Made by a program: the position numbers and the translations under genes. The notes below the pieces were generated by a model. The model ran no database searches. It saw only the letters and a program-made list of their open reading frames with translations, and had not been told where the DNA came from. DNA of 55,855 nucleotides from Caldilineaceae bacterium (GTDB lineage Bacteria; Chloroflexota; Anaerolineae; Caldilineales; Caldilineaceae): the NCBI GenBank assembly GCA_026645575.1, contig JAPKMW010000077.1, positions 1 to 55,855 on the forward strand. The letters run 5' to 3'. Of this stretch, positions 9,381-36,724 are shown in pieces; within the stretch, counting starts at the first letter, position 1; every line of letters starts with the position of its first letter.

Positions 9381-12300
9381 TTACCGCCGCACCATCGGCA
9401 AGAAGAGACATTGACCGCTACAAACCGGCAGCGGCAGAGTGCGCGCCTGGCCGTCACCGGGGGTGTAGTAGCGCCCTTTGTTGTGCGCCGTGGTGACATT
9501 GCCAGCCTGATCAACCACCTGGACAAAGAAGCGCGTCCCCGGCCCACCCGTAAAGACGCCGGACCAGACCTGCGCCGCGGCGTCAAAGGTCAACGGCTGA
9601 GAGAGCAAGCGGTTGGGATCGTCGGCGTTGATATAGGCGACCGTCACCTGGCGAATGCCGGCAGCATCGGTGGCGCCCACCTTCACCTGCACCTGACGCT
9701 CGTTACCAAAGAGACTATTCACCAAATGAATCGTCGGCGGGGTCTGGTCGGGGCTGTCGTTGTAGAAGACCTCGACGGCCAGCCGATCATAGATGCGCAA
9801 CTGGTTGCTGGCGGGTTGATATTGACCAATCTGGGCCACAACCGCCGCCGTGTTACCATCGCTGCGTAGCTCGGTGATCAGCGGCGGGTACCAAGCATCG
9901 GTGTTGCCGCTGGCGGCCCAAGCCGTTTGCACAGCAGACGCGTTCACTTGTGCGCTATATTCGTTGTAGGGCGCAGCAATCAACGGTTGGAAATTGCTTT
10001 CCGTGCGGAAGGTGGCGCTGCGCAGAACGATGCCCCGTCCGCTTTGACCAGCCGGTATGGTTTCGGTGTAGAAGAAGAGCGGCTGAATCGGCTCGCCGGG
10101 GGTCTGGGCGGTGTTCCGGTTGCGCCCCAGGGCGTAGTAGTCGCCGGCTGCGGTGTCCGCTTTGGCAAAAAAGGCAGCGTTATTGAGCGTTGTGCTGAGG
10201 TTGTAATCGCGCACAATCATGCCCAGCGGCGGGAACGCGCCACTGACCTCCAAGCCGGGGAATTCGTCATTGCCGGACAGCGCGCCAGCGCCGCCACTCT
10301 TAACCCCAAACATGGGCAAGCCATAGAAGATCATCGTCTGGAGAATCTTTTCGTCAAAGGCATCCAGGCCACCGCTCTGGCGATAGTAATCCTGCTTGGC
10401 ATCGGTCAACGATTGGCCCATGCTCGCCTGTTGACCCTTGAGCAGCCGTTGGGTGTAGAGTTGCAAGAGCTTTTCCGACCAGCCAATGTCATAGACATGA
10501 CCCCAGCCATAACCGGTGTGACCGATGTAGTTGGCGCCCTTGCCGGCAAAGGCTTGCACCAGGTCAATTGCTCGGCTGCTATCGGTCGGCGGGACATTGA
10601 GACCAGCATGGCAACCGGGCGTGTAGATCAGGGCGCCGCTCAGATCCAGCCCGTTGGCGGCGATCAACTCGTGGGCCTGAATGTTGTCATTGTTGGGCGC
10701 ACCTTCGATCCAGTGAGCGGCATGGCCGGCGATGATCTGGATCTTATAGGGCTGGTTGGTGCGGGTTTGAGCGCTGCGCAGGTTGGCGCCCAGCCAGTTG
10801 TCGCCGATCAAACTACAACTGGCGATGCCGGCGTTGCCATAGTCGGTCTGCCAGAGCTTACAGACATTGGTTGCCATATCCTGCACAAAGTCATAGCCAC
10901 TCACCAGCACGGCATCCTGCGCCGCCAGCGTGGTGACCGGGTTCGCCAGGAAGGCGTCGATCACCCGGATCATGTCGCCAGGCGACTCGACCAGACGACC
11001 CACGGCCAGATCAGGCAGGTAGAGCGGATGGCCCTGCACTGTGGTTGGCTCTTTGTCGGCGTAGTAGTCATCAGAGAGATAGGTATTGCCGTAGAGCGCG
11101 GCGCCGGTGGGATGGGTTTTGTCGGTTTCGCCGTAAGTCTTCTCCGGGTAAAGATCGGTGCGATCCTGGATGCGATAGAAGGGCAGCGCCCGGTCATCGC
11201 CGACGAGAACCAAGTATTTGAGCGTTCCCTGTGCCTGCCAGTGGTTGAGAATCAGGGTGCGAATGGCCGACGCCACCCCGTTGGCCTTCTCTACACTGGT
11301 CAAGTCGCTCTGCCAGGCGCTATAGGCAGCGCGCACAGTATCATTTTGACTGAGGTCGATGATCGTCCCCTGGACTTCCGGTCGTGCGGCCAGAGCATCA
11401 AGCTTGCTCATCAATTGCGTAGCGTCGGCTTCACTGTAGAGCGCGGCGATCTGAGCGCGATTGACCAGGATCAGGCCCTGCCCTTCCGACGGTTGGGGCG
11501 TGGGCGTGGGGGTGGCGGTGGGCGGCGGCGGCAGGGTCGGTACGGGGGTCGGCGTACCGGGTTGCAAGCGCAGGCTATAGCTCATGTTGTTGCCAAAGGT
11601 AGCGCTATTATAGGGGGCGACTTTGGCGTAATAGGTGCCGGCCTGGCCAAAGGTATAAGCAATCTGCGAAGCGCCGCCGGGGGTGTGGTCATCATTTTGC
11701 GCCAACTCTTTGCCGTTAGCGTCGTACAGCACCACCAGGGTATCGGTGGCAGCGCCAACATCGGTCGTCTCCAGCAAATAGGGCGTGTTGGCGTTAACGG
11801 TAAAGGAGACCCAATCCTGATCATTGGCCGGGCAGAAGTTATGTTGTTGCCGTGTGCCATCAGCCGGCAGCGGACGCGCGCTTTCACGGCTGTTGTCCGG
11901 CTCGTTGCCATCGGGGGTGCAGACCCCTTCCTGAATGCGCAATTGATAGGCCGTCTCCTCACCGGCCACGTCTTGTTGATAGTTCTTGGCCTGAACAAAG
12001 TAGTCGCCGGCCTGGGGTGCACGCCAGGTGATACGTCCGCCGTGTCCACCACCGTTGTCGTCATCACAGGCAAGTTGCGCACCGGCGCCATCCACCAGGC
12101 AGAGTACCGGGTCGCTGCTCGTCTTCAAGTTGACCGTTTCGATGGTGTAGGTAATGTTGGCCTGGGCGGTAAACTTGACCCAATCCTCGTCACCAGCGGG
12201 GAAGAAAGTGCGCGCCTGGTCGGTGGCGCCCACGGTCAACGGCTTGGCATTCTCCCGGCTGTTATCCGGCTCAAAGCTGTCACCGCTGGCGCTGGTGATC

Positions 12301-13511: not shown

Positions 13512-13536
13512 GACCTTTCTCCTACTTGAATTGCAT

Positions 13537-13623
13537 TACGAGTTACGAATTACGAGTTACGAAATGTCGTACAGAGATCTTCGGGATTCCTTTGGGTGCG
13601 GAATTCGTAACTCGTAACTCGTA
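13537..13623. repeat. Inverted repeat of TACGAGTTACGA units
   Basis: Two to three TACGAGTTACGAATTACGA-type units (from 13537) are mirrored by their complement (13600-13623) across about 35 bases. It fills the gap between the C25 protease gene and the upstream cohesin-protein gene. Confidence 0.75.
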
Positions 13624-13638
13624 TACCCGATCTAATGC

Positions 13639-15882
13639 TCATTGTCGAATAATTGGGAGATAGTTGCTATTTTTCATTGCGCCAGTTGGCGGTTGTTCTT
13701 TACTCACGAGGGTGATACCTTCGGCGCGCAGCAGCACACTGCCATTAGCGCCGGCCAGATCAATCCCAGCGCTGCCACCCAACACCGGGGTGAGCAGTGT
13801 GCCGCTAGTGGCCGCTTTCAGGCGCACTTTGAGGGTAGCAAGGGGACGGGCAGCGGCAACCGGCTGGTCGGGGGCCAGGATGACCAGGAAGCGGAGTGTA
13901 CCGGCGTGGTTGTCTACCGCGCTTTGCAGCAGTAGCGTAGACGGGTTGTTGCTCAGGTCAATGGCCAGCACTTCCAGACTACTGGCCGCAAAGGTGTAGT
14001 AGCCGGTGACAGCCAGCACCGGGTCGCCTGCGCCCGGATCGACATAGAGCGGCAACGTCAGCACGGTGTTGAGATCGCTGCTAATGGTCACGGGCTTGTT
14101 GTTGGTCACAGAAGGAGAAGCAAAGGTCAGGCGCGCTTGGGGTTGGCCGCCGGCGCCAATGGGGGCCGGCACTTTGTCCGGCGACGCATAACTCCGGTCG
14201 CCCGCGGCGTTAAAGTTGGCGACCAGCAGCGCGGCATCGCGCGCCGTGACACAATCGTCGGTTTCATCGAGATCGGCGTTTGGCACATAGCCCGTCGCAC
14301 CGGCGCACTGATTGAGCGCGCCGCTCAAGATACCAAAGTCAATGGTGCCGACGCGGTTATCGCTGCGGTCATGCTCGACATCCCCTTCCAGCAAGGTGCC
14401 AAGGTAGAGGCGGTTCTCACCCGGCTGCAATTCAACCAGGCGAATCGCGCTGCCGAGGGTATGATCCCCTTTGACCCGTACCGTATAGCGCCCAATCGGC
14501 AGACCGGCCAGGGTGAAGCGCCCCTGCTCGTCGGTCGTGACCCGTTTGCGGATTGTCGGTTGTTCGCTATTCTCCAGGTCAGTCATACTCAGGGTTAACG
14601 GAATGCTCCACGCCTTGTGCGGTTTGGCGGGACGCCCTTGGAGATCAACCTGGCCCAGGATCATGGCGCCGGTAGCATTCTCGGTGACATGCACTACGCC
14701 ATTATGGGCCGTTTGCAGGATGCTCCCGCCGGGGCCGGTGATGTCAGTGGCCGGGAAGGTGCTGAGGAAGGTAATAGCGGCGCCCGCGGCAGGGGTGGCG
14801 GCTTTGGCTTTGATTACCAGCGATAACACAACAAAAGGTTCGTTGACCGTCTGGTTGAGACCGCCCACGGCGTATTGAAATTCACCGGTGGTGGGGTCAA
14901 AGCGGGGCGCTTCCATTACCTGCGCCAACCCGGTGGTGCGGCTCAGGACGTCCGTCAATTCGAGGTAGGCGGGGTCCACTTTGCCATGTAGTTGCACCCC
15001 ATTGACTGCCGTTGCGCCAGGTGTGACAATAATATCCAGAGTGCGCACACGGTTGACCAGCAAGGTGGTTGGCGCGGGAACAACGGCTAATGTCGCATCT
15101 TTGCCGCCAGCGCGCTCAACCGTGAAGCCGTTGCTGTGCTGGATGATCTCCTGCGCGTTGGTATAGGTGGTGGTGACCGTGATAGGACGCGACCCCGCAG
15201 CGGCGTTGGCGCCGATTTGCAACTTCACCCTGAATTGGGTCGGGCTGGTGACAGTGAGCGCTTGCACCGTAATGGCCGGACCAAAGTCGGCAGTGGTGGC
15301 GGCAGTGAGAAAGTGGCTGTTGGTGGCGGTGACGGTCACTGTTACTTGTGCGCCGGCAGCGGCTTGCGCCGGCTCCACGGCGGTGATCATAGGCGGCGCC
15401 AGGGTGGGGAAGCGGTTGTTCTGTTCATTGCTCTCGGCGACGCGATCTTCCCACGGCGGGTCAACCCAGACAAAAAGCTGCGGGTTGGCGCCGGTAAAGG
15501 GGTGGTCGGTACGAGTCCAGGTGTAGACCGCGCCCGGCGCCAGCGGCACCTCGAACAGAATCGCGCCGGTGGTCGGGGTGGTGGCGGTGGGGGTTGTCGT
15601 GGCGGGGTCAACATAGAGATAGGTGTGAAAGCCAGCAGTCGCCGTGAGATCGCCCTGGTTTTTGATCACCATGATAATGTCGCCGGTTGACCCTGCGCCG
15701 GGGTTGGTGGGGCTGAGGATGACCCGGCTGATAATGAGATCGGGCGCCGCCGTCGGGGTCGCAGCATGGACGGAGGCCAATCCGGCGCCCCGCAATGACC
15801 ACGTTGCGGCAGTACACAAGAGGGCGAAGAAGAAACCAGCGAGGGCAAAACGTGAAAAGATGGATAAGTGCGGTTGTTGCAT
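13639..15882 (-). CDS. Secreted CARDB/cohesin/dockerin scaffold-like protein
   Basis: This 747-residue protein starts with a signal peptide (about residues 1-41). It continues with a CARDB domain (about 45-160), a TIG/IPT-like beta domain (about 162-255), a first cohesin-like domain (about 262-400), a carboxypeptidase-regulatory-like beta sandwich (about 405-495), a dockerin-like pair of Ca2+-loop segments (about 500-560, including NADLDETDDCVTARD), a second cohesin-like domain (about 585-735), and the tail NYLPIIRQ. AGGGAG lies upstream of the start. The second half is clearly paralogous to the upstream 829-residue protein. Cohesins bind dockerins in cellulosome-type assemblies; here the adjacent dockerin-bearing subtilisin is the obvious candidate partner. 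The binding itself is inferred. Confidence 0.75.
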   Translation of the reverse strand: MQQPHLSIFSRFALAGFFFALLCTAATWSLRGAGLASVHAATPTAAPDLIISRVILSPTNPGAGSTGDIIMVIKNQGDLTATAGFHTYLYVDPATTTPTATTPTTGAILFEVPLAPGAVYTWTRTDHPFTGANPQLFVWVDPPWEDRVAESNEQNNRFPTLAPPMITAVEPAQAAAGAQVTVTVTATNSHFLTAATTADFGPAITVQALTVTSPTQFRVKLQIGANAAAGSRPITVTTTYTNAQEIIQHSNGFTVERAGGKDATLAVVPAPTTLLVNRVRTLDIIVTPGATAVNGVQLHGKVDPAYLELTDVLSRTTGLAQVMEAPRFDPTTGEFQYAVGGLNQTVNEPFVVLSLVIKAKAATPAAGAAITFLSTFPATDITGPGGSILQTAHNGVVHVTENATGAMILGQVDLQGRPAKPHKAWSIPLTLSMTDLENSEQPTIRKRVTTDEQGRFTLAGLPIGRYTVRVKGDHTLGSAIRLVELQPGENRLYLGTLLEGDVEHDRSDNRVGTIDFGILSGALNQCAGATGYVPNADLDETDDCVTARDAALLVANFNAAGDRSYASPDKVPAPIGAGGQPQARLTFASPSVTNNKPVTISSDLNTVLTLPLYVDPGAGDPVLAVTGYYTFAASSLEVLAIDLSNNPSTLLLQSAVDNHAGTLRFLVILAPDQPVAAARPLATLKVRLKAATSGTLLTPVLGGSAGIDLAGANGSVLLRAEGITLVSKEQPPTGAMKNSNYLPIIRQ

Positions 15883-15938
15883 GGGTTGGCTCCCTACAAT
15901 AGCTTTGGTTAACAGGAAGACATAGGGTTAACCATGCA

Positions 15939-16163: not shown

Positions 16164-18653
16164 TTACCGGCGCACGACGGGCAGCAAGACCCGGTTGCTA
16201 CCGGCGACCTCGGCGGCCATGACGCTGCCGTTGATGCCGGCGATGTTGGTGTCACGCGGGCCGCCGACGATGGCGGTGAGCAGGGCGCCGCTGGGGGTGG
16301 CCTTGATCTTCACCTGGAAGGTGGCAATCTGGAGGCGTTGGCGCACCGAGCTGCCAATGGCGGCGCTGGCGCTGAACTTGACCGTGCCTTGCGTGTTGTC
16401 GATCACTGGCTCCAACAAGACATTGGGCAAGCCGCCGGTGAGAACCACCTTTACCACCTCCACCACTGCCGGGTTAAAGCGGTAGTGAGCCGTGACGCCG
16501 ACCACGGCGTCGCCGTTGCGGGGATCCACGTAGAGCGGAAGGTCAATGGTTGCACCGACGCCGGCCACGGCCGGGGCTTCCAACGCCAGCACTGCCTGTT
16601 TGCTAGAGATCGGCATAGGGGCCGGGATGCGGGTCGGCGTGTCATAGGCAATGTCGCCCTGTTTGTTAAAGTTGGGGGACAAGAGGCCAAAGTCCTCGAC
16701 GGTGATACAATCATCGGTCTCGTTCAGGTCCGCGTTGGCGCGATAGCCGCTGTCACCTTTACATTTGTCATAGGAGCCGCTCAGGAGGCCAAAGTCGGCA
16801 ATCTGGACGGCGTTGCCGGTGTTGCTGGTATCAATATCCCCTTCCAAGAGGGTGCCGAAGAAGATTTTGTTGACGCCGGCCACTAGCGCCGCACTACGAA
16901 TCAGGTTCGCCAGGGTATGATCGCCCTTGATGCGCAACTGGTACGAGCCGGCGGTCAGGTTATTCAGGGTAAATTCCCCTTTGTCGTCGGAGGTGACGAG
17001 ATAGACCGTCGGGTTGCTGGTGCCTTCGAGCGTCATCTCCAGCGTGAGCGGGATCGACCAGGCCAGGTTGGGCTTGGCCGGGCGCCCTTGGAGATCGACC
17101 TTGCCTTGCAGCGTTGCCATGCCGCCGTTGCCGCCACCAATGATCACCACGCCGTCGCGGGCCGCTTCCATGATGCTGCCGCCAGGGCCGGCAATGTCAG
17201 TGGGTGGGGAGGTGTTGAGGAAGGTGATCGGCGTGCCACTGGCGCTGGTGCTTTTCAGCGCTTCTACTTCCAGGGTGAGGACAGTAAAGGGGTCGGTGAT
17301 GGTGCGGCCCAGGACGCCGGCGCCAAAGCGGAAAACGCCGGTGGTCGCATCAAATTTCAGTGGATCCAACTCTTCACCCAACTGGATGGCGCCTTTGGTC
17401 ACGTTGGTCAGCCGCAGATAAGCCGGGTCAACCCGACCGTGGATTTGCACACCATTCATGGGTGTTGTACCAGGGGACAACACAATATCCAGCGTGGCCT
17501 TGGCGCCAACGGTCAGGGTGGCCGGCGAGGGATCAACATAGAGGGTGGCTGCACCCGGTTCCTGTTGCACCACATTGACCCGGAAGCCGCCGGTTTTGGT
17601 CGCGGCCACGTTGCCGGCGGTGAGCGTCACATCCCGTTCGCCGGGGGTGGCATTGGCGGCAATGGCGATTTCAACGACGGCTTGCGTCGCACTGATGACG
17701 GCGACATTCTTGACGGTGATGCCGGCGCCAAAGTCGGCATCGGTGCGCCCGACGACAAAGTTGGTGTTCTTGCCCTGCACGGTCACGGTGGTGGTAACGC
17801 CGGTGCGCGCGTTGTTGGGTTCGATCTTGGTCAGTTCCGCCGCCGGGCCATTGGCATAGACGGTAAAGCCGGCGGTCTTGGTCACCACTTCGTTGCCGGT
17901 GGTGATGGTGACAACGCGCGGGCCGGGTTCGGCGTCGGCAGCCACAGCCAGGGTGGCGACCAACTGGGTCTTGCTATTCACCACCACTTTGTTCACGGCG
18001 ATGTCTTCGCCAAAGTCGGCGGTGGTCTGGTTGGCGGTGAAGACTGTGTTGAGGCCGGTCACCGTGACATCCACGGTTTTGTCCACTTCACTGCCGCTCG
18101 GTTGCAGATCGGTCAGTTCCGGGCGTTCGCCGTCCACAATGCTCAAGGCGCCGTTGGTGACATTGACCGGCACCGCCGCCGGGGTTGTGCCGCCACCGAC
18201 CAGGGTGGTCTTGGTGGTGTTAAAGGTCAGCTCCGTGCTGCCGCGGGCTTGGGGGGTGGTGGTATAGTCCACCTTCAAAATCGCGCCGTTGCCGGGGGTG
18301 ACGCTCTGTGAGCCGAGAACGTAGAAAAGCACCTTCACCTTGACATTGGCCGGGTCGCTGGCATCCTGCGCCATCGTTACTTGATAGCCGCTCAGGCGAT
18401 TCTCCGGCTGGGCGTTGGTTACTTGCAGGCCAATGGTCGAATCATAGGCGAAGTGGATTTCGCCGGAAGAGATGGCCACGGCATTGGTAAGCCGCAGCGG
18501 GAAGGAGCCGGTGGCGCCAGGGGCGGCGCTGACCGTATCCAGGGCTAACTGATTGGCGCTCTGGGCCGCCACCGGGGGCGCCGGGAAAAGCGCTAGGAGG
18601 AGGGCCAGGAGAAGAAACAGATTGGGTAAGCCGGTTGCTAGACGAGTACGCAT
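16164..18653 (-). CDS. Secreted multi-cohesin/dockerin scaffold-like protein
   Basis: This 829-residue protein has a signal peptide (about 1-30), an N-terminal cohesin-like domain (about 34-170), two TIG/IPT-like repeats (about 172-365), a second cohesin-like domain (about 370-510), a carboxypeptidase-regulatory-like domain (about 515-605), a dockerin-like segment with EGDIDTSN and NADLNETDDCITVEDFG loops (about 608-675), a third cohesin-like domain (about 690-815), and the tail NRVLLPVVRR. AAAGGAG precedes the start. With up to three cohesin-like domains and an internal dockerin, it could both bind dockerin proteins and dock onto another scaffold. Its C-terminal half parallels the 747-residue neighbour, so the two arose by duplication. 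Confidence 0.75.
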   Translation of the reverse strand: MRTRLATGLPNLFLLLALLLALFPAPPVAAQSANQLALDTVSAAPGATGSFPLRLTNAVAISSGEIHFAYDSTIGLQVTNAQPENRLSGYQVTMAQDASDPANVKVKVLFYVLGSQSVTPGNGAILKVDYTTTPQARGSTELTFNTTKTTLVGGGTTPAAVPVNVTNGALSIVDGERPELTDLQPSGSEVDKTVDVTVTGLNTVFTANQTTADFGEDIAVNKVVVNSKTQLVATLAVAADAEPGPRVVTITTGNEVVTKTAGFTVYANGPAAELTKIEPNNARTGVTTTVTVQGKNTNFVVGRTDADFGAGITVKNVAVISATQAVVEIAIAANATPGERDVTLTAGNVAATKTGGFRVNVVQQEPGAATLYVDPSPATLTVGAKATLDIVLSPGTTPMNGVQIHGRVDPAYLRLTNVTKGAIQLGEELDPLKFDATTGVFRFGAGVLGRTITDPFTVLTLEVEALKSTSASGTPITFLNTSPPTDIAGPGGSIMEAARDGVVIIGGGNGGMATLQGKVDLQGRPAKPNLAWSIPLTLEMTLEGTSNPTVYLVTSDDKGEFTLNNLTAGSYQLRIKGDHTLANLIRSAALVAGVNKIFFGTLLEGDIDTSNTGNAVQIADFGLLSGSYDKCKGDSGYRANADLNETDDCITVEDFGLLSPNFNKQGDIAYDTPTRIPAPMPISSKQAVLALEAPAVAGVGATIDLPLYVDPRNGDAVVGVTAHYRFNPAVVEVVKVVLTGGLPNVLLEPVIDNTQGTVKFSASAAIGSSVRQRLQIATFQVKIKATPSGALLTAIVGGPRDTNIAGINGSVMAAEVAGSNRVLLPVVRR

Positions 18654-18769: not shown

Positions 18770-21280
18770 CTACCCGATGATGATGTTAATAACCTGTTGC
18801 AGATCGACAATATTCCAGGTGTTATCGCGGTTGAGGTCGCCACGGGTCCACCACTCACGGGGGTAGAGGGTGTAGTCCGGGTTGTCGCTGCGCAGAATCA
18901 TGTTGATCAGCACTTGCAGGTCAACAATGTTAACCGTGCGGTCACAGTTGATGTCGCCGGTGATGACACAGTTATCGCCGGGGCCTTGATAATCGACGAC
19001 CAGGGCAAAGGGCTGGGTACCGCCGGGCAGATTGGGGTTAGGGCTGACCGGCACATTGGTTCCCCGCACTTCCACGGTCCAGATGCCGGGGGCCGCGGTT
19101 TGAATGTAGACATTTTCCACATTGTTGGTGCGATCGGCCTGGCCGCCGCCTTGCAAGGTCCAGCCGCCGCCAAAGTGGTTGCCGATATAGGTCACCGCTT
19201 CGGGCGAGGTGACAACCAGATCCAGGTTGTTGACCAGATCGGGGCCAGCCACCGGGTTGCCGGGGGCATCATTCCAGACCAGCGTGATCTTCAAGGGGCC
19301 ACCGCCGCCGGGAATGGTGTAGCTGTAGCGGGCGACATTGCCGGTGGCGACGCCGGTGGGGTCATCGACGAATTGGTTGGTCTTGTCGGTGGCGTTGACC
19401 AGGTTGATGCGCCCCCAGCCTTCATGCATATTAGGAATCGGGAAGCGGTTGTCGTTGACGCCGTCGTTGTTCTCATCCAGCAGATCCACCGCCGAGTTGA
19501 TCAGGGTGGCTTTGATCAAGGCCGCGCTAGGGGTGACGGTGTGCGCTTCCTGGTAAAATTCTCGCACAATGGCCGCCGCGCCGGCGACAATCGGTGATGC
19601 CATAGAGGTGCCGCCAGAATATTTGTAATGCTCACTATAGGGCAGGCCCCAGCCGTCATCTTGATATTCGTTGTTCTGTGGATTGACGGGATCGTTGTTA
19701 TAGCCCTGTTGGTACATATCCGAGTAACCGGAGAGAATCCAGGTGCCGGGCGCCACCACATCGGGCTTAATGCGACCATCGCGCGTCGGGCCACGGCTGG
19801 AAAAACCGGCCATCTGTTCGGCATTGCCGGCCATGGGATCATTACGGAGCGGAGCAGCCGTAAACCCCCTATCCCCCCAGGATCCGATGAAGTTGCGGCC
19901 CCCCATTTCGGCGCAGGTTTGGTCGGTTGTGCGATCTTTATAGCTCAGGTTGTTGTCACAGGGGAAACCATCAGCACGGGCATTTTCACTGGCGCCGACG
20001 GTGATCGCATTCTTAGCCGTGCCAGGCGCACCGATGGAGCCGTTATCAACAATCCCGTCACCATTCCGGTCAACCCCGGCATTGCCGGCTGCGAAAACGA
20101 TGGTCATATCCGGGATCTGGTGCATAAAGTGATCAACTTGGGCGGCGTTAGCGGTATAAGCGCCGTTGACATCCGCACCCCAGGAGTTGTTATGAATCCG
20201 TGCGCCGGCCCGATAGGCTTGGGCAAAAAGTTCGCGCGTATCATTTGGCAACCCAATAAAACGATACTGACTTTCCGCCGTGCCACCACATTCGGCTTTC
20301 ATCACAACATAATTTTGCACAGCCTGGAAGACCAATTCCGCCTCAGGCGCAACCCCACGCCCGATGCCATTTGGCCCAGCCAGCCCGGCGCCCAGCGCGG
20401 AAACAGCCACGTGGGTGCCATGACCGTCAATGTCCTGAGTGCCGTCATCGACAATGCTGGCAAAACAATTGTGGTTGATCACACCGGGCCAATTGAAGAT
20501 TTCACGAATCCGCCGATTGGGAATGTCGGGAAATTCTTCAATCTTGTCGCCCCGATCCAGACCGGTATCGGCGACAGCGATCACCTGATTTTGGCCAGTG
20601 TACCCATTGGTCTGGACGGTGTTGGCACCCACAATGACGCCGCCGCCATAATCGTTCAGGGCTTGATTGGGGATGTTTTCTTCAATCCAGGCTACGTCGC
20701 TTACCTTGGCAATAGCCTTCACCTGTGGCCCGTTGGCGCTGACCACCAGAATCTCATTCTGACGGCTCAAAACCGGGATGTTCTGGGCAATGATGGCCTG
20801 GGCGACCGCTCTGGCGTCGGCGCCGGGGTGGACCAGAACAGTATAAGTTTTCGCTGTGCCGGCATCGAGCGCCAGGTTGAATTTATAGCCCGGCTGGTAG
20901 GGATCGACAAAACGCACATTGGCCTGCCCCTTCACCTGGTTCGCCTGCTCCGGCGTCATGCGGGTGACAAAGGCGTTTTCGGGAATATAGTCCAATACTT
21001 GGGCGCCGGTGGCTTGGACGGCGGCCTTCCACGCGCCCTGTACTGGGCCGGCAAATTGTACCAGATAATAGGCGGGCTGACCGGCGGGCAAAGCGCCCAA
21101 CGTCAATTCCGGGTCGAGCGGCAGCGCCGTCTGGCCGGGGGTAAAGGTGCCGACTTCCAACTGAATCGGCGGCGGCGGTTGCTGCGCCGCTGGCGCAGCG
21201 TAACTGGCGGCAGGCGTCATGTTCAACAAGAGTGAACAAGCGCCAATAAAGGCAAGGGCATTCAAAAACGATTTGCGCAT
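18770..21280 (-). CDS. Secreted subtilisin-like (S8) serine protease with C-terminal dockerin
   Basis: This 836-residue protein has a signal peptide (about 1-28), a propeptide-like region (about 70-205), and an S8 catalytic domain with Asp238 (VADTGLD), His287 (DGHGTHVA), the oxyanion-hole region FAAGNAG, and Ser559 (GGTSMASP). A PPC/P-domain-like beta region follows (about 640-770). The last ~63 residues (774-836) are a dockerin with two Ca2+-loop repeats, GDINCDRTVNIVDLQ and GDLNRDNTWNIVDLQ, each followed by an Ile-rich helix. It lacks the LPxVRR-type tail of its neighbours, which suggests it is held at the surface through its dockerin, for example by the two downstream cohesin proteins. 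AAGGAGAAAGG precedes the start. Confidence 0.9.
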   Translation of the reverse strand: MRKSFLNALAFIGACSLLLNMTPAASYAAPAAQQPPPPIQLEVGTFTPGQTALPLDPELTLGALPAGQPAYYLVQFAGPVQGAWKAAVQATGAQVLDYIPENAFVTRMTPEQANQVKGQANVRFVDPYQPGYKFNLALDAGTAKTYTVLVHPGADARAVAQAIIAQNIPVLSRQNEILVVSANGPQVKAIAKVSDVAWIEENIPNQALNDYGGGVIVGANTVQTNGYTGQNQVIAVADTGLDRGDKIEEFPDIPNRRIREIFNWPGVINHNCFASIVDDGTQDIDGHGTHVAVSALGAGLAGPNGIGRGVAPEAELVFQAVQNYVVMKAECGGTAESQYRFIGLPNDTRELFAQAYRAGARIHNNSWGADVNGAYTANAAQVDHFMHQIPDMTIVFAAGNAGVDRNGDGIVDNGSIGAPGTAKNAITVGASENARADGFPCDNNLSYKDRTTDQTCAEMGGRNFIGSWGDRGFTAAPLRNDPMAGNAEQMAGFSSRGPTRDGRIKPDVVAPGTWILSGYSDMYQQGYNNDPVNPQNNEYQDDGWGLPYSEHYKYSGGTSMASPIVAGAAAIVREFYQEAHTVTPSAALIKATLINSAVDLLDENNDGVNDNRFPIPNMHEGWGRINLVNATDKTNQFVDDPTGVATGNVARYSYTIPGGGGPLKITLVWNDAPGNPVAGPDLVNNLDLVVTSPEAVTYIGNHFGGGWTLQGGGQADRTNNVENVYIQTAAPGIWTVEVRGTNVPVSPNPNLPGGTQPFALVVDYQGPGDNCVITGDINCDRTVNIVDLQVLINMILRSDNPDYTLYPREWWTRGDLNRDNTWNIVDLQQVINIIIG

Positions 21281-24700: not shown

Positions 24701-25181
24701 CGTCAAGATAAAGCAAATTCAAAAAGTTGAGTTGGCCCAAGGCCGGCGGCAATAGCCCTTGTAATTGGTTATCGTCCAGGGCCAAATAGCCCAGGTTGGC
24801 TAAGTTCCCAATCGATGGCGGAAGCGTCCCCGTCAGTCCATTGGCCGAGAGCGTCAGCCAGGTCACATTGCCAAAGAGGCAACGCACCCCCACCCACCCA
24901 GCAGGGTTAAAGGTTGGCCCTTGCCAGCTACAGGGCGTGTTGCTCTGTAACCAGTTGCTGTTGTCGAGCCAACCGGGGCCACTGGTCGCGTTATAAAAGT
25001 CGACCAGCGCCGCACATTCGCTCTGGGAAATTTCCGTCACGGTGCTACAATCAAACGTATTTTGGGCCAGCGCCACCGCCGGGGCAACGCCGAGCGCTTT
25101 GGTCAGGCCGGGCAAGCCAAGGAGGAGAATCAGCAGGCCACCACTCACCAAGTGGCGTAACCAATGATAGGTCGTCGTCAT
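21753..25181 (-). CDS. Secreted plant-type LRR protein with an inactive C13 (legumain-like) peptidase domain
   Basis: This 1142-residue protein has a signal peptide, a plant-type LRR N-cap (ECAALVDFYNATSGPGW, then GVRC), 17 full LRRs of exactly 24 residues with the pattern LxxLxLxxNxLxGxIPxxLG, a terminal half repeat, a fibronectin-III-like domain (about 545-640), a PPC domain (about 645-765), a C13-like domain (about 770-1010), a C-terminal beta domain, and the tail RLYLPLTRR. Both catalytic residues are missing: Asn865 stands where the two paralogues have His, and Pro909 where they have Cys, with the 44-residue spacing kept. It is therefore probably a pseudo-peptidase that binds rather than cuts. 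AAAGGATG precedes the start. It may act as a regulator or decoy for the active LRR-C13 protein encoded next door. Confidence 0.85.
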   Translation of the reverse strand: MTTTYHWLRHLVSGGLLILLLGLPGLTKALGVAPAVALAQNTFDCSTVTEISQSECAALVDFYNATSGPGWLDNSNWLQSNTPCSWQGPTFNPAGWVGVRCLFGNVTWLTLSANGLTGTLPPSIGNLANLGYLALDDNQLQGLLPPALGQLNFLNLLYLDGNRFSGSIPVEVGNLTNLQTLSLHGNYLTGAIPAQLGALSQLEALYLFNNRLQGSIPPALGNLTNLAVLRLDQNQLSGPLPPELTNLTKLTFLTLNNNQLQGELPAGLERLTNLKTLHLDNNQLQGALPTALGQLTYLESLSLANNRFTGALPTTLGQLRNLKELYLSDNQLSGPLPPELGQLTRLSTLFLYRNGFTGAIPPQLGNLTMLVHLVLQENQLQGPIPPALGKLTNLRTLHLDNNQLSGPLPVELGVLTQLTQLKLHNNHLSGELPTVLGNLTHLTELTVAENGLSGMLPVALGNLTELRLLDLHGNQFSGAVPPDLGKLVNLRNFYLHNNGLRGALPLGIVNMRDLVEVKLDYNALYAPLPSLQELLDAKAPGWSATQTLAPTNLIAHQQSSSAIALTWTPAAYTLDGGFYEVSYATDPAGPFTVHGQTPSKRSRAYTVEGLAANTTYYFQVRSYTPAHHEQQNELWSDWTPVVSAATAAPGAGDAFEEDNTCAAARTLAVDGRLLDHTFHTPGDVDWLQIPVQPGRTYRIDVQIPAGSPVDVTLALYTDCAGEPVAQQNEPFSNGARLDYQPTQAGALWLKLVDQNGQAGSDLHTYRVAVRALGDETGAGAVILVAGRLPNGAPLQANLDTVADAAYNLFRSNGYSDENIRYLAATATQPGVDGSITPELLRDAIVSWALDKVNPQRALTLYLVGNGETGRFWLDEAAGKAVTVADLTAWLTQLEESVPGVPINVIIDAPYAGGLINGDPTLSKPGRVILTATTATQRAFASRQGLHFSDHLLTALRQGQHLFGAYWETRTALFASHRSREGDLWQLPWLDANGNGVPNEVDDALQASLRSFGSATPVAGAALWPPTLADVRIITNVLQVTIADNRETPLRVWALLYPPDYTPPLSGAGFILEDPAADAKLTLVELQPEGNGRYGAGLNLDGRYRFIVYAQDSEGLHARPAEVTAVMAPIVLNNRLYLPLTRR

Positions 25182-25738: not shown

Positions 25739-28700
25739 CTACCGCGTCACCAACGGCAGATACACTTGCGTGTTGTCCTCAACTTGCCCGCCGACCGGCG
25801 CCGCCGTGTTGATGGTGATGACCGCCGGGCGGGCCTGTAGACCGTCGCTATCTTCGGCATGAACAACCACCCGGTAGAGGCCGAGCTGGGTAAAGCCGCT
25901 ATAGTTTAACTGGTAGCGGTCGCCCACCAAGATCAGATCGGCTTTGGGCGCGTTGTCGGGGGTCAGTTCGTTGCCGCTGGTTGGCGGTTGGTAGCCGGGC
26001 GGGTAGATAACGGCCCAGACCCGGGCAATGGCGCCGTTGTCGCGCACATCGGCCTGGATCTGGCGTTGGCCGTTGACGGCGGCGGCTTCCTGCAGCGACG
26101 CAATGTAGGGCGGCCAAAGTTGGCTGGTGGCCTGACTGTTGACCGGGAAGAGGGTGCGGCGGGCAGCAATGGCGGCGTCCTCCAACTCGTTGGGCGCGCC
26201 GTCGCCATCGGCGTCGAGCCAGGGGTCTTGGATCAGGTTAGTCGCCTGGCGGGCGGCAATGCGCGCTTCCCAGAAGCCGCTAAAGAGATGATGGCCCTGG
26301 CGTAGCGCCGTGAAGAGATAATCGGAGAAGTAGGCGCCCTGCTCCGAGGCAAAGGCCAGGTTGTGTAGATTGGTCGAGGTCATGATCACGCGCCCCGCTT
26401 TGCTAAGGGAGCCGGCGTTATTGAAGCCCGTGATAAAGCTGCCGGAGTTGCACGCTTCGATCAGCACATTGATGGCGACATTGGGCGCCGTCTCTTCCAA
26501 CCGGTCGAGCCATTCATCCAGTTGGGCCGGGGTGAGGCGCTGCCCCTGGGTCTCATCCACATAAAAGACGCCCTTGTCGCCGTGGTCGATCAGGTAGAGG
26601 GTCAAGCTGCGGCTTTCGCTGACGCGGCTCTTGGCCCAGGTGGTGATGGCAAATTGGAGATTCGCCAACGTCGCCGCGGCATCAACACCGGGGGGAGCGA
26701 CACCGGCTGCGTTTGTGGCGGTCGAAAGGTAGTAGATATTGTCGGCGTTGTAGCCGTTGTTGAGCAGCGTCTGGTAGAGGGTGGCGGTAACATGATCAAT
26801 GTTGTCCTGCACATCATCGTTGGTGGCATAGAGCCGGCCACCCAGCAGAATGACCGCGCCGTTGGCCGTTTCGCCATCAAGGGCGCGCACGGCAATCTGG
26901 TAAGTGGCATTGGCGCCGGCGGTTCCCCGTTCATTACGCAGTTGGAGATAGTAGGCGCCAGCAGCAGGGGCAGTAAAGTTGTATTGGACGCCGGGGCTAA
27001 AGCTTTCGTTGGATTGTTGCGGGTTGGGGTCGGCGCAACCGGCATAGAGTTTTAAGGCGATATCCACCGTGGAGTCTGCCGTCGGCTGCACGTCGATGCG
27101 ATAGGCGACGCCGGCGCGGGCGGTGAATTGCACCCAATCAACATCGGTGCTTTGGTGGAAGTTGTGATGGTCAAAATAGCCATTGGTGACGATGGCGCGC
27201 GCCTGGGCGCAAGTGTCATCGTTTTCATAGCCATCGCCGACGCCGGAGATGTTGCTGGTGGTGGCGCTGACCGGGGCGCTATAGTCGCTCCATAGCTCAT
27301 TAGGCTGACCACTGCCGGCGGGTGTATAGGTGCGCACACGGAAGAAGTAGGTCGTGTTGGGCGTCAGGCCATCAACAGTATAGCCCGGTGTGCGTTTGTC
27401 TACGGTGCGCCCGTGGGGTGTATAGAGGCCGTCGGCGCTGGTGGCGACCTCGACGGCATAGGCGCCGCCGTCGCCACCATAGGCAATCGGCGTCCAACTG
27501 AGGGCAATGGCGTCGCTCCGTTCGGGCAGCGCCTGGACAGCCGTCGGTGGGAGCGTTTGGGTAGCATCCCAGGTCGGCGCTTTGCTGGTCAAAAAAGCGC
27601 GCAGGGCCTCGTCAGTAGTCGTCAGTTGGTTGTTGGCAAGCTCGAGCGTGACCAGCCGGGTGAGCCGGGCTAATTCAGGCGGGAGGGGGCCGCGCAGGTC
27701 ATTAGCCGATAGATCCAATTCGAGCAGGTTGAGCAGATTGCCCAGTTCCGCTGGGAGGGGGCCAGCCAAGCGGTTGCCGGCCAGGCGCAACGTTGCCAGG
27801 TTGGTCAATCCGCCCAGTTGGGGCGGCAGGGCGCCACTCAGTTGGTTGCGTTGCAGCGAAAGTTGAGTCAAACGGCTGAGATTGCCAAGCGACGCTGGAA
27901 TCGTCCCTTGCAGCCGGTTGTGATTAAGCCAGAGGGTGCGCAGGTGTGGCAATTGGCCCAAGGCGGCGGGGATGGGGCCGCTCAATTGGTTGACGCTTAG
28001 GCTCAGATCGGTAAGCTGTTGCAGTTGGGCCAGGGTCGCGGGAATTTCTCCACTCAGTTGGTTTATATCTAGTTCCAGGGTGGTGAGATTCGTCAGCTTA
28101 CCCAACTGGTCAGGAATCGGCCCGCTCAGGCTATTGTCATAGAGGCGAAGAACCTGTAAGCGCGCCAGGTTGCCCAGTTCCGGTGGAATGGGGCCGCTGA
28201 AACGGTTGCTGTCGAGCCAGAGGGTTTCCAGACTGGTTAACCTGCCCAGGGTAGTCGGCAGTGGCCCACTGAGGTAATTGTTGCTTAACCAGAGATAACG
28301 TAGGTCTGGCAATTCACCTAGCGCCGGCGGCAGCGGCCCACTCAATTGGTTGTTGAAGAGCCATACGTATTCGAGCGCTTTGAGGTTGGCCAGCCCTGCC
28401 GGCACTTCACCACTGAATTGATTGTTGCTCAGGCGCAGATCCGTGAGTTGGGTCAACCGGCCTAGTTCGTTGGGCAGGGGGCCGCTCAAGCGGTTGTCCT
28501 GGAGCCAGAGGGAAGTCACGTTGGTTAGCGCGCCCAGCGTGCTGGGGATGGCGCCCGTAAGCTGGTTTTCCCCCAACCAGAGCGTGGTCAGGTTCGTCAA
28601 GTTCCCCAATTGGGTCGGAATTTCGCCGGTTAGCTCGTTACCGAAGAGCATAAGGGATTGCAAGCCGGTCAGGTTGCCCAATGTGGCCGGGATGGGGCCG

Positions 28701-32321: not shown

Positions 32322-34922
32322 CTATTTACGAACCAACGGCAAAAAGAGCCGGCTGCCGTTGTTGAACTCAATCGTCTTCGCCGGGCTGTGCAGGCCGTCG
32401 TCATCCTGGGCGTAGATGACGATGCGATAGCGGCCGGCTTCGTCAAAGGCGCCGTAGAGACCAACATACTCATGGTTGCCACGCGCTTGCAGGGTGATGG
32501 GCGGAGGGCCGACTGTCATCTCTTCGCTGTTGGTCGGCGGTTGATAGCTGGGGGGATAGATAACCGCCCAGACGCTCTCGACCTTGCCGTCATCTAGGAC
32601 TTCGGCCCAGATTTCGCGGCGGGTGGTTGCCGCGGCCAGCCCAGCGCTGTTGCGCACGGTGGCTTGCACCACATAGGGTTGCCAGAGATTGGCGGTGCGA
32701 TCAAAGGCGCCGGGGACGCGGAAGCTCAACTGGGCGGCCAGCGCGCCGTCGTCGCCATCGTTGGGGATGGTGTCGCCGTCATCATCGAGCCAGGGGGTTT
32801 GCACCGAGGGGCTGCGTTGGGTGTTGGCCTGGGCTTCGTGAAAGGCGCCCAGCAGCGTTTTGCCCATCGCCAGCCCGTCAAGCAGCGCATCGGAGAAGAG
32901 CGCGCCGGTGTTGGTCGCCCAGGCCAGTTCATAGGCGCCAGCGGAAGTGATAATAACGCGGCCGGGCTTGCTAATACTTTTGGTCGGGTCGATAAAGCTG
33001 CCTGAGTTGCACGCTTCAATGATCACATTGATGCGCACGCCAGGAACCGCCGTTTCGAGCGCCGTCAGCCACTCATGGAGATCCTGTGGTGTGAGCCGTT
33101 CGCGCCGCGGCTCATCAAGATAAAGTTTGTCATAGCCGCCATGATCCATCAGGTAGAGGGTCAGCGCTTGCCCGTTGCTCAACTTGCCGGCGGCCCACTC
33201 GGTGATCGCCTGGCGCAGATTGGCATTATCGGGCAGACCGTTAACATCAGGCTTGCCATCATTGTCCGGGTCGAGGTTGAGATCAGTCGCCAGGTAGCGA
33301 ATGCGGTCGGCGGGGAAGCCCTGGTTGCGCCAGAGGCGATAGGCGCGATTGGTGATGTTGTGGATCTGGGTTTGCAGGAAGTCCCCCTCCTGGTTGCGCC
33401 CGGCGACGATGATCAGAGCGCCGGTGGTTGGCGCGCCGGTGAGCGCGCGCACGGCGATTTGATAGCGCACGTCGTTGCCAAAGCGGCTGGCCGGGTTATT
33501 ACTTAACTTGATATAGTAGTCAGTGCTTTGGGTGGCGGTGAAGGTTACCCGCACATCCGGCGAGTAGCTATGATCTTGGGTAGTGGTGGCGCCGCTATTG
33601 CAACGGGCGTGCAGACTGAGCAACAGATCGGTGGGGTCATCCCCCGCAACATCGCCTTCGATCAGGTAGGTGGTGTTGGCTATCACCGAGAATTTGATCC
33701 AGTCGGCGTCGGCCTGGGCGTGAAAGTTGCGCGTTTGGGGGATGCCGTCGGTTGCCAATGGTTTGGCAGCGGCGCAATCATCATCCGCCTCGTAAGCGTC
33801 GCCGACGCCGGCAGGTGGCAGTGTAGCGGTTGGCGTGGCCGTGGGCGGCACCGTAGTAGGCGTCATAGTCGCCGTGGGGGTGGCAGCAGGCTGGGTCGGC
33901 GTCGCGGTGACGGTGGGCGGGGTAGTGGGCGTGGCGGTCGCACTTAAATTGAGCGTGAAGGCGCCAGTGGCACTTTCGCTCAGGATGGTGCCATTTGCGA
34001 AGAAGGCGGTGATCCACCATTGACCATCAGCAAGAAATGGAACGCCTGGACTGACAGTGCAGAGGGTGCCGGTGGCGCAGCCAGCTTCGACGGGTGTATA
34101 ATCTTGATTAATCTTACCCGGCGCAAAGGGATCGCCATACTCATTGACCCACAGTTTGTAATAGACGACGTTGGGTAAAGGTTGCCAGGAGAAGTTGGGG
34201 GTATCGGTGTTGATCTCCCCTTGCGGCGCCACCAGGATTGGCGGCGGCAAAGGGGTGGCGGTTGGGCCACTCTGGCAGACGCCCAGGGCAACATCATCAA
34301 AGTTCACGGCGTCAATGGCGCCGTCGGCATAAACTTCAATGGCAAAATTGACGGTGCGCCCAGCCAGTTTTGTCACATCCAACGCCGGCGCAAAGTGCGT
34401 CCAGTCACATTCACAATCAAAGAGCAGGTAATAAGATTGCAGACGGTTGCTAAAGTCGGCGTCGTAGAGGCTGACATAGACATTCTGGTCAACCGTGCCG
34501 TTGATGATGATAGCTTCAAAGTCCAACGTTACCACTGATGCATTGGCCGGAATGGTGAAACGCTGCCAGAGGTCAGCCGTGCGCCCGTTGAAGGTGTTCA
34601 TCGCCAACGAGCGGCTGCCGCTAAAGGCGTAGCGGGCGTCATAGAAGACATTGGCGGCGTCATTCACTGACCAGGCCGCATCCACCTCAAAGCCACCGTT
34701 ATCCAGCGCATTGGGGCAGTGGTTGGTGGGCGACTGCACAGCAGCAGGGTCAACACCTACAACGACCTGGGTGTTCCGGGACGCGTTGGCAGCCGCGCGA
34801 TGATCAGCCGGCCCGGCGATCAAAACGTTTTCATGAGCGGGCCGGCCCGCTTGCGCCGATACGGGTATCAAATAGAGCAGCCCAGCCAGGCAGGCCAAGA
34901 TCATCAACAACGATATTTTCAT
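32322..34922 (-). CDS. Secreted C13 (legumain-like) peptidase with an N-terminal jelly-roll domain
   Basis: This 866-residue protein starts at 34922, chosen because GGGAG lies 6-7 bases upstream and the signal peptide (KISLLMILACLAGLLYLIPV) then begins at once. A carbohydrate-binding-like jelly roll follows (about 70-215, NGGFE to NFDDVALG), then a fibronectin-like domain (about 220-330), a Thr/Pro-rich linker, a PPC domain (about 375-495), and a C13 domain with His594 (LMDHGGYD) and Cys638 (IEACNSGSF). An acidic Ca2+-loop-like stretch, a beta domain and the tail RLFLPLVRK end it. The catalytic module is closely related to those of the two LRR proteins. It is probably an active extracellular cysteine peptidase, of unknown target. 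Confidence 0.85.
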   Translation of the reverse strand: MKISLLMILACLAGLLYLIPVSAQAGRPAHENVLIAGPADHRAAANASRNTQVVVGVDPAAVQSPTNHCPNALDNGGFEVDAAWSVNDAANVFYDARYAFSGSRSLAMNTFNGRTADLWQRFTIPANASVVTLDFEAIIINGTVDQNVYVSLYDADFSNRLQSYYLLFDCECDWTHFAPALDVTKLAGRTVNFAIEVYADGAIDAVNFDDVALGVCQSGPTATPLPPPILVAPQGEINTDTPNFSWQPLPNVVYYKLWVNEYGDPFAPGKINQDYTPVEAGCATGTLCTVSPGVPFLADGQWWITAFFANGTILSESATGAFTLNLSATATPTTPPTVTATPTQPAATPTATMTPTTVPPTATPTATLPPAGVGDAYEADDDCAAAKPLATDGIPQTRNFHAQADADWIKFSVIANTTYLIEGDVAGDDPTDLLLSLHARCNSGATTTQDHSYSPDVRVTFTATQSTDYYIKLSNNPASRFGNDVRYQIAVRALTGAPTTGALIIVAGRNQEGDFLQTQIHNITNRAYRLWRNQGFPADRIRYLATDLNLDPDNDGKPDVNGLPDNANLRQAITEWAAGKLSNGQALTLYLMDHGGYDKLYLDEPRRERLTPQDLHEWLTALETAVPGVRINVIIEACNSGSFIDPTKSISKPGRVIITSAGAYELAWATNTGALFSDALLDGLAMGKTLLGAFHEAQANTQRSPSVQTPWLDDDGDTIPNDGDDGALAAQLSFRVPGAFDRTANLWQPYVVQATVRNSAGLAAATTRREIWAEVLDDGKVESVWAVIYPPSYQPPTNSEEMTVGPPPITLQARGNHEYVGLYGAFDEAGRYRIVIYAQDDDGLHSPAKTIEFNNGSRLFLPLVRK

Positions 34923-34943
34923 GCAAAACTCCCTTGATCGTTG

Positions 34944-35008
34944 GGAACGCTTGCGTTCGTAGCCGGTCACTGGGAACCCGTTGGGGGCGGCTATGCGCGC
35001 AAGCGTTC
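34944..35008. repeat. Imperfect intergenic hairpin
   Basis: GGAACGCTTGCG (from 34944) pairs with CGCAAGCGTTCC (to 35008), and TAGCCG further in pairs with CGGCTA. The hairpin lies between the C13 peptidase start and the propeller gene stop, so it may end propeller-gene transcription on the minus strand. Confidence 0.6.
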
Positions 35009-35017
35009 CTATGGTGG

Positions 35018-36724
35018 TTAGGGTCGGCTCCGTACTAGCGGCAGATAAAGTTGTTGAGGAGCTAGCGGCAAGGCATCATTGATCGTCACGGTCGTCGTCA
35101 CCGGCGCCGACCAGACCCCTTCATCATCCTGAACGCGCAGGCTGATGGTATGTTCACCAGCGGTCAACGTATTCGCCGCTAGGGTGCATTCATGGGCAGT
35201 GGTGCAGAGCGGCCCATCGATGTCGGAACGCCAATCCCAGGCCAACACTTGCGAGGCGGCGCCGCTGGGCGTCTCATCTTGATCGGCGGCGGTCGCGGTT
35301 AGGTGAAGGGTATCAGTCAACGCCAGACGCTGGGTGGGCGGCGTGGTTACTTGGGCGATGGGCGGTTGCCCCGGTGTCACACGACGATCCAGGTAGAGGA
35401 TTGTGCCGTTCTGTTGCGCCGCCACCACGCGTTCACCGGCTGTGGCGACAGCGCTGATGGGCGCCGCAGCAACGGTGTCGGTCAACCAAAGATTGGCAGT
35501 GGCCTGGAAGTGAACACCGCCCGGGAGACCCGCCCAAACTAAACCATCATTCGCCACCGCCAGGGCTTGAATGGTCGCGGGGGCGCCGGCGAGAGCCGCA
35601 TCGGCAGGCAGGCCGTGGGTGGTGGTGTAGGCGCGCCAACTGCCGGCGCTCAGGTCATAGCGACTGATGCCGCCGTGGTAGCCGTTGGTGTCCAGATACG
35701 GTTCACCGCCCACCCAGAGGTGATTGGCGTCAACGGCAAGGGTGCGCACCAGATCCGAGGCCAGCCCATCCCCCGTGCGGTAACGCTGCCAGCCGCTGTT
35801 GAGGTCACCCGTTGCATTAGGTCGATAGTAGACACCGCCTTCCCAAGCGCCTACCCAAAGGCCGCCTTGTGGATCAAGCGCCAGCGCCATGATCGGCTCG
35901 GCAATGGCGGTGATCAATTGCCAACTTTGGCCGTCATAACGGGCCAGGGCGCCGTTACTGTCACCGCCGCCAACCCAGAGGTGGCCGCTCTGGGGATGGA
36001 CAGCGATGGCGCGCATTGTTGCCGCAAAGGGAGCAGGGAGCAGTTGCCACGGTTGCCCGCTCCCCGTTGCCAGATGGCGCGGGCCGGCGACCCAATGGAC
36101 GTTGTTGGGGCCAAGCGCAAAGGCACGCACCGCCGGTTCCGGCCAGGGCAGGGTTTGTGTCGTCACCTGGCGGGTGGTGAGATCCACGGTAATCAACCCT
36201 GCCGGGCCGCCAGCCCACAGGGTCTGTCCTGCGATGGTCAAGGTGTGGGTATAGCCGCCGGTCAAGAGGGGCGTCCACTCACCCCTTTCCGGCAGCACGA
36301 GCGGCACTTCTTGTTCACCTTTGGCGACGCCATCAACGGCCGGTGCGGCACGGAAAGGACGCGCCAGTTGTTCCCCGGCAAAATTGACGGTGAGGGTTAA
36401 GATGTCGCTCCGCTGGGCGCCCAGCCCTTTGCCAGTGAGATCATAGTAGGGCAGGGCGCTGTTGAGGGTCGGCTGGGTGCGGGTGGTAAGGCTTTTGCCG
36501 GCAAAGTTCAGGGTGACGTTGGCGCCTTGCACCGGTTGCCCGCGATAGTAGAGAATGCCCCAGGTGCAGCCGCAATAGTCGGGGTCGGGCGTCAACGGGC
36601 CATAGCCGCGACAGTGGGGCGGCAACGCCACGGGGGGGTCATCCTGAGCATGAACCGGCAACGGCGCAAGGTTGGCAAACAGGAGGCCGATGAATAGGCA
36701 AAGGGTCAGGAATTTTTGGTGCAT
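35018..36724 (-). CDS. Secreted beta-propeller protein with a PKD-like domain
   Basis: This 568-residue protein starts at 36724 because GGAAGGA lies just upstream and overlaps an earlier in-frame ATG. A signal peptide (about 1-26, ending PVHA) is followed by a Cys-rich N-terminal beta domain (about 30-150). Then come propeller blades with the recurring pattern LWVGG...G-x-x-x-Y (about 155-425), of the kind found in two-component-regulator propellers. A PKD/cadherin-like domain follows (about 450-550), and the tail is LYLPLVRSRP, a variant of the shared tail with two extra residues. No catalytic motif is seen. It may serve as a binding module of the surface protease set. Confidence 0.75.
   Translation of the reverse strand: MHQKFLTLCLFIGLLFANLAPLPVHAQDDPPVALPPHCRGYGPLTPDPDYCGCTWGILYYRGQPVQGANVTLNFAGKSLTTRTQPTLNSALPYYDLTGKGLGAQRSDILTLTVNFAGEQLARPFRAAPAVDGVAKGEQEVPLVLPERGEWTPLLTGGYTHTLTIAGQTLWAGGPAGLITVDLTTRQVTTQTLPWPEPAVRAFALGPNNVHWVAGPRHLATGSGQPWQLLPAPFAATMRAIAVHPQSGHLWVGGGDSNGALARYDGQSWQLITAIAEPIMALALDPQGGLWVGAWEGGVYYRPNATGDLNSGWQRYRTGDGLASDLVRTLAVDANHLWVGGEPYLDTNGYHGGISRYDLSAGSWRAYTTTHGLPADAALAGAPATIQALAVANDGLVWAGLPGGVHFQATANLWLTDTVAAAPISAVATAGERVVAAQQNGTILYLDRRVTPGQPPIAQVTTPPTQRLALTDTLHLTATAADQDETPSGAASQVLAWDWRSDIDGPLCTTAHECTLAANTLTAGEHTISLRVQDDEGVWSAPVTTTVTINDALPLAPQQLYLPLVRSRP

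Follow-up and report, generated by a model that had tools for sequence, protein, structure and literature searches.

A helix-free Leu-Pro tail on exported proteins of Chloroflexota as a putative sorting motif

Why should seven exported proteins encoded side by side close with almost the same residues? A 55,855-nucleotide contig of a Caldilineaceae bacterium (phylum Chloroflexota; JAPKMW010000077.1), analysed over its full length and referred to below as the window, carries on its minus strand an island of genes (9381-36739) for eight proteins, seven of which end in a short C-terminal tail built around Leu-Pro and one of which, a subtilisin, carries a dockerin. The nearly identical endings were remarked on in an initial annotation of this DNA, and all seven are present in the translations (Table 1). 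Genes and signal peptides were called with simple scripts, which returned a signal peptide for each of the seven and for 8/8 island proteins, and the tail pattern was absent from 22/22 other genes called in the window. On balance, we favour the view that the tail is a portable C-terminal tag, free of any helix, by which Sec-exported proteins are retained on the cell surface through docking to a receptor.

Identity and genomic spread of the tail

The initial annotation knew of no named family for the tail, but there is one. In NCBIfam (release 20.0) a 10-position model, NF053834 ('ultrashort_CTERM'), and an 11-position model, NF050076 ('sort_motif_YLP'), are both described as 'YLP-box putative sorting motif-containing protein', and both end on the window tails. 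When 40-residue protein ends were searched, NF053834 reached its cut-off (10 bits) in 4/7 window tails (genes starting at 9381, 25739, 32322 and 35018, with 12.4, 17.5, 14.3 and 13.3 bits), and NF050076 (cut-off 15 bits) was exceeded by 25739 (16.9), with 3/7 tails below it (10.7, 13.6 and 14.1) and 3/7 unlisted. Neither model was listed for the tails of 13639, 16164 and 21753, nor did either match the two control ends (0/2; the subtilisin and a CAP-LysM protein from elsewhere in the window). At full length, the protein of 25739-30520 scored 11.9 bits with NF053834; no YLP model was listed in NCBIfam for the six other tail proteins or the subtilisin, probably because HMMER filtering loses matches this short when the protein is long. 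Two full-length homologues (P0165 and P0191) had neither model listed. The window tail is therefore the same as the YLP-box, a motif that was already known and that the NCBI curators independently label a putative sorting motif, in agreement with the sorting interpretation. Those models supply a name without a mechanism, a machine or a host range, and 3/7 window tails fall in neither; at the level of result listings, a literature search returned no publication on this tail or on the YLP-box name. Added here are counts of how widely it occurs, evidence that it does not depend on the domain before it, an Acidobacteriota case, negative results for exosortase and sortase, and a link to scaffold and dockerin proteins.

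To count tails in genomes we used the DNA pattern aromatic-Leu-Pro-hydrophobic-hydrophobic-any-Arg-stop, with Leu/Pro-swapped and reversed patterns as controls; because it requires Arg-stop at a fixed distance, it undercounts. Seven genomes reached via relatives of the island C13 (legumain-like) protein together gave 164 tail matches versus 10 swapped and 41 reversed, with a clear excess over the controls in five of the seven (tail/swapped/reversed: G002 59/1/7, G005 32/2/8, G006 31/3/4, G004 17/2/10, G007 15/0/0, G001 7/2/9 and G003 3/0/3), and five genomes of other groups together gave 7/10/18. Among 301 sampled Chloroflexota genomes, 161 had at least one match, 140 had none and 17 had at least 10, a level that the reversed control reaches in 2/301 (genomes with at least 10 matches were counted by eye here and in the Acidobacteriota below); two of the 17, G291 and G293, have reversed counts of 16 and 7. 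The 100 genomes from the class of G006 held 469 matches versus 172 reversed, with at least 10 in 11/100 and the controls there in 0/100. The tail is thus patchy and concentrated in part of the Chloroflexota rather than phylum-wide. The idea of a Chloroflexota signal needs qualifying on two sides: the tail is neither in all members (140/301 without a match) nor in that phylum only, as the following case shows.

Of 99 Acidobacteriota genomes, 97 had fewer than 10 matches, one had 11 versus 7 reversed, and G372, the sole member of its order in the sample, had 33 versus 5 reversed. Regions fetched from G372 contained 22 pattern matches, two of them evidently not tails; the other 20 comprised 14 with a signal-peptide call, one cut by a slice edge and five with no call. 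Its rpoB-family protein (one match) shares 66-68% identity with those of five other Acidobacteriota and 61% with that of one more, as against 53-58% with seven of Chloroflexota type, so a mislabelled genome is unlikely, with some admixture possible. One G372 tail protein has a tailed homologue in G006, and horizontal gain of the tail by G372 is possible.

Exported cargo and independence of the preceding domain

The initial annotation suggested comparing signal-peptide genes with the rest, and the enrichment it predicted was found. In step-wise 20-kb samples from three genomes the tail occurred in 9/257 signal-peptide genes versus 0/486 others (p 6e-5) when three tail genes cut by a slice edge were excluded, and in 9/257 versus 3/489 (p 0.005) when these three were counted as non-secreted. 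In a larger set, whose regions were partly chosen for their tails, the 57 tail genes comprised 43 with a signal-peptide call, eight that were cut and six without a call, that is, a call in 43/49 uncut genes. The shortest tail protein has 150 residues and the longest 3509. None of 59 has a C-terminal membrane helix, as compared with 90/329 other signal-peptide genes, which bears out the assertion that this is not an LPXTG signal: Leu-Pro is present and no helix follows. In G230, NCBIfam assigns one tail protein a 'choice-of-anchor Z' domain, and 'choice-of-anchor' names denote domains occurring beside various anchors.

The seven proteins were originally described as having unrelated domain make-up. 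For the window this is too strong, since the 150 residues before the tail place them in three groups (C13/Ig plus C25-like, four proteins; cohesin, two; propeller/PKD, one), and their make-up is less mixed than was held. Across genomes, 91 tail proteins (93 before the two evident non-tails of G372 were removed) fall by BLAST of the sequence before the tail into 47 dissimilar groups, 37 of them singletons. With one member taken per group, entropy runs at 3.4-3.9 bits up to position -2 and then gives way to I/L/V, Y/F, L, P, a hydrophobic residue, I/L/V, any residue, R and the end of the chain; because of the way in which most loci were located, Leu-Pro, Arg and the chain end are partly predetermined. 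Likewise, the invariant Leu-Pro of alignment A3 (52 hand-picked rows, mostly tail-bearing) was not used as evidence. The C13 family weighs more, because its homologues were found by their protease and Ig region and not by the tail. Our homologue lists hold the best 120 of 331 and the best 120 of 3510 matches. Among the 120 listed C13 homologues, 89 have the tail core within their last 14 residues, the motif closing on R or K in 74/89 and the chain ending immediately after it in 59/89. Read by eye, a terminal tail is present at 11 of the 12 C13 loci from Chloroflexota or 'bacterium RI_153' (the twelfth was not readable), versus 0/13 relatives from other phyla and archaea. In P0165 and P0191 the tail directly follows Pro/Thr-rich linkers, and it is kept in 18/18 homologues covering at least 74% of the scaffold protein 13639-15882. 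The model of that scaffold predicts residues 725-747 to be disordered (pLDDT < 50), tail included, and the C13 model has no strand after 366-371.

Two variations on the chain end were seen. One protein (locus L004) finishes in two tandem tail motifs, FLPLI and then FLPFISR, and seven listed C13 homologues (P0045, P0048, P0050, P0054, P0060, P0070 and P0085) share a different ending (...AS.MWLIW or ASAVWLIW) that may represent a separate module.

Cohesin scaffolds and candidate readers of the tail

In the mechanism that we prefer, the N-terminal signal peptide would take the proteins out of the cytoplasm and the last ~8 residues, [LVI]-[YF]-L-P-h-[VIL]-x-[RK] (h, hydrophobic; x, any), would stay exposed after export. 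A dedicated extracellular receptor might then bind the tail without a covalent bond and so retain the protein at the surface; in the simplest case the tail would form an edge strand whose Leu-Pro and Arg make the specificity contacts. Tail proteins bearing cohesins would serve as anchoring scaffolds, with dockerin partners such as the island subtilisin riding on them through cohesin-dockerin binding. Surface holding by the tail, and of dockerin proteins by tailed scaffolds, is the simplest account of these findings.

The scaffold part of this proposal begins with 13639-15882, for which structural modelling predicts a cohesin fold. In Foldseek searches its four best PDB matches are scaffoldin chains of C. 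thermocellum (4fl4 and 3kcp), comparisons with single cohesins give TM 0.68-0.72 by target length, and two of its homologues (P0254 and P0261) carry PF00963. Its relative 16164-18653 is by that relationship a putative cohesin scaffold as well. The link to the subtilisin comes from natural fusions. The alignment of the Caldilineaceae protein P0135 with the island subtilisin stops at residue 763, shortly ahead of the dockerin (53% identity); from residue 767 of P0135 through its tail, the match is to scaffold 16164-18653 (49%), so that subtilisin and scaffold-plus-tail occur in one chain; P0257 is a second subtilase fused to a 16164-18653-type scaffold with a tail (52%). A terminal dockerin is found in 12 of the 120 listed subtilisin homologues and a tail in 13, with no homologue ending in both. 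The natural subtilisin-scaffold-tail fusion makes the dockerin-scaffold link directly testable. As in cellulosomal scaffoldins, a cohesin scaffold has a C-terminal anchor module and the same island encodes a dockerin enzyme; here, however, the anchor would be a short tail, and the Pfam matches of the island include no carbohydrate-active catalytic family.

Several observations weigh against this reading. As many as 95 of the 120 listed subtilisin homologues end in neither dockerin nor tail, and the alternation of the two may rest on few events, because the 12 dockerin homologues form one close group (67-100% identity, window subtilisin included). Six tail genes lack a signal-peptide call, and in G001 (7 versus 9) and G003 (3 versus 3) the tail does not outnumber its reversed control. 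Among eight tail ends from G005, G006 and G372, only three reach the NF053834 cut-off and one that of NF050076; four more match NF050076 alone, below its cut-off, and one has no match. The confidence of the C13 model is lowered only moderately at the tail (block means 81 and 67; packing not examined). The tail is found in 3/39 lipobox proteins versus 56/349 of the rest (p 0.24), no significant shortage, and a mutual exclusion of lipobox and tail was accordingly dropped. Lastly, no conserved neighbour other than cargo was seen at tail loci, and no receptor or enzyme was identified among the candidates examined (exosortase, sortase, C13, C25-like and neighbours). The suggestion of a sorting, anchoring or processing machine is thus upheld as regards a portable element biased to exported proteins, with which the curators concur, and not as regards the machine; since none was found to read the tail, sorting itself is something that we infer.

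Candidate readers were compared between 20 tail-rich and 20 tail-poor genomes, picked by match number and size (G177, G291 and G293, with at least 10 matches, were left out), which took up the suggestion to look for a co-occurring protease or transpeptidase. Two peptidases correlate with the tail without being universal: C13 is present in 10/20 tail-rich versus 0/20 tail-poor genomes (p 0.0004), and the C25-like (gingipain-like) region of the window in 16/20 versus 4/20 (p 0.0004; undetected in the tail-rich G023, G113, G175 and G372). Exosortase (PF09721) occurs in 5/20 versus 4/20 and was rejected as the reader. Sortase presence, at 20/20 versus 19/20, does not discriminate the two sets; the sole sortase match in G372 adjoins a gene with an LPKTG-helix end, and one G113 sortase has its closest relatives in tail-rich genomes, with overlapping E-values.

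After receptor docking, which we regard as the most likely, comes covalent processing, an unlikely reading but the best placed of the others. A transpeptidase would cut at or after Leu-Pro-x-[VIL] and join the protein to the envelope, with clan CD peptidases (C25-like, C13) or sortases as candidates. The constant Leu-Pro resembles LPXTG, both clan CD families follow the tail in the counts above, the fold matches of the window C13 region include legumain-type ligases and the GPI transamidase complex, and the C25 peptidase PorU, which acts as the type IX sortase, has a sorting domain of its own, so that a protein may be both cargo and sorter. Against it, no membrane helix would hold the substrate, the two families are undetected in 4 (C25-like) and 10 (C13) of the 20 tail-rich genomes, the sortase results are those just given, and C25-like and C13 proteins are often tailed themselves and so look like cargo. 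Because they are often tail-bearing and undetected in those tail-rich genomes, we treat both as common or favoured cargo.

Less probable again is that the tail is no anchor but a signal for export through a second layer or from the cell altogether, in the manner of the type IX C-terminal domain. A C-terminal mark on signal-peptide proteins would fit, as would the tail in an Acidobacteriota genome, that phylum being diderm; the type IX domain too is a C-terminal signal on secreted peptidases and propeller proteins. Chloroflexota, by contrast, are mostly described as single-membraned, the tail is ~8 residues rather than an Ig-like domain, and the window tail proteins have no type IX sorting domain above the cut-off (just an internal match below threshold in one of them; type IX core genes were not searched for). 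We give slightly less credence to an assembly strand of the donor-strand type or a quality-control element for a C-terminus-specific protease. The hydrophobic, strand-like stretch at the chain end and the L004 protein with two tails speak for it; a cargo of such disparate length without a common subunit architecture, and a Leu-Pro and Arg more specific than a generic protease signal requires, speak against. That the tail is the last strand of a homologous beta domain can be set aside as very improbable: four of the seven window proteins are related before the tail and the BLAST groups could still share a fold, but this is contradicted by the 47 sequence groups, the Pro/Thr linkers, the untailed C13 relatives outside Chloroflexota (0/13) and the scaffold and C13 models.

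The tail also differs from known helix-bearing signals. In PEP-CTERM systems too, many dissimilar signal-peptide proteins share a short motif at the C-terminus; there it is joined by a membrane helix and a basic cluster, whereas the tail chain ends at or near the motif without a helix, and exosortase is found in only a quarter of the tail-rich genomes. LPXTG shares the Leu-Pro core and a basic residue at the end, but the tail has neither helix nor Thr-Gly, and sortase is nearly everywhere in tail-rich and tail-poor genomes alike. More tentatively, and with somewhat less than even confidence, we propose that the YLP-box is a separate bacterial sorting class: an eight-residue, helix-free C-terminal tag that a receptor or transpeptidase outside the cell would read, borne in part of the Chloroflexota by as many as dozens of proteins in one genome, found through transfer or convergence in at least one Acidobacteriota lineage as well, and anchoring non-cellulosomal cohesin/dockerin scaffolds. 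If anchoring is true, surface proteins become recognisable in a phylum that is hard to grow, scaffolds and proteases would be held on cells without sortase signals, helices or lipids, and the tail would point to a machine that can be sought by short-peptide pull-down.

The peptidases show some further arrangements. A secreted C25-like protein, 1113-1185 residues long, recurs at loci L293-L301, mostly among similar neighbours, and the copies read have IGGQIT/IGGSIGA-type repeats; the L301 copy has no Pfam match and lies beside a cyclase-AAA-TPR protein and an H+-pyrophosphatase. A processing operon of this C25-like protein (~1150 residues) with the cyclase-TPR gene was considered and dropped, as Pfam places the neighbours in unrelated families. 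In three tail-poor genomes (L304-L306), copies of ~1010 residues close with the tail-like variants YLPNVNVKR, YLPNVNVNR and YLPSVNVKR. C13, C25-like and DUF6345 (PF19872) proteins are adjacent in two genomes and C13 and DUF6345 proteins in a third (L010, L143/L156 and L007), most of them tailed.

The island and its surroundings

Features of the island are collected in Table 1. The C25-like assignment for 9381-13511 is a reading of the sequence, with no Pfam C25 match, and the limits of the two cohesin-like domains are estimates. As first observed, the subtilisin is tail-less and has a dockerin (PF00404). The CAP-LysM protein (46845-48359), put forward as a second tail-less comparison, does lack the tail; it also lacks a signal-peptide call.

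Table 1. Coordinates of island genes, tails and domains in the window (all on the minus strand)
Gene	Feature	Position	Description	Basis
9381-13511	Tail CLFLPMVRR (LFLPMVRR placed)	9384..9407 (-)	CARDB/PPC protein with C25-like (gingipain-like) region	
13639-15882	Tail NYLPIIRQ	13642..13665 (-)	Predicted cohesin scaffold protein	
13639-15882	First predicted cohesin-like domain	14638..15096 (-)		AlphaFold model and Foldseek; limits estimated, aligned range not given
13639-15882	Second, C-terminal predicted cohesin-like domain	13708..14136 (-)		AlphaFold model and Foldseek; limits estimated
16164-18653	Tail VLLPVVRR	16167..16190 (-)	Putative scaffold protein related to 13639-15882	
18770-21280	Dockerin	18779..18958 (-)	Subtilisin, tail-less	PF00404, residues 775-834, E 5.3e-6
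21753-25181	Tail LYLPLTRR	21756..21779 (-)	LRR-fn3 protein related to 25739-30520	
25739-30520	Tail VYLPLVTR	25742..25765 (-)	LRR-fn3-C13 protein	
32322-34970	Tail LFLPLVRK	32325..32348 (-)	C13 (legumain-like) protein with Ig-like domain	
35018-36739	Tail LYLPLVRSRP	35021..35050 (-)	Reg_prop propeller protein, weak PKD-like end	

The best named homologue of the island C13 protein comes from Caldilinea sp. CFX5 (93% over residues 500-882). Directly adjoining the island, which holds both C13 and C25-like peptidases, is a TPR-CHAT protein (36787-39528; PF12770, E 9e-63). Within 25739-30520 a short run of YPIPSIQ/YPIPNTQ-type units lies ahead of the main LRR array and resembles an in-frame DNA repeat.

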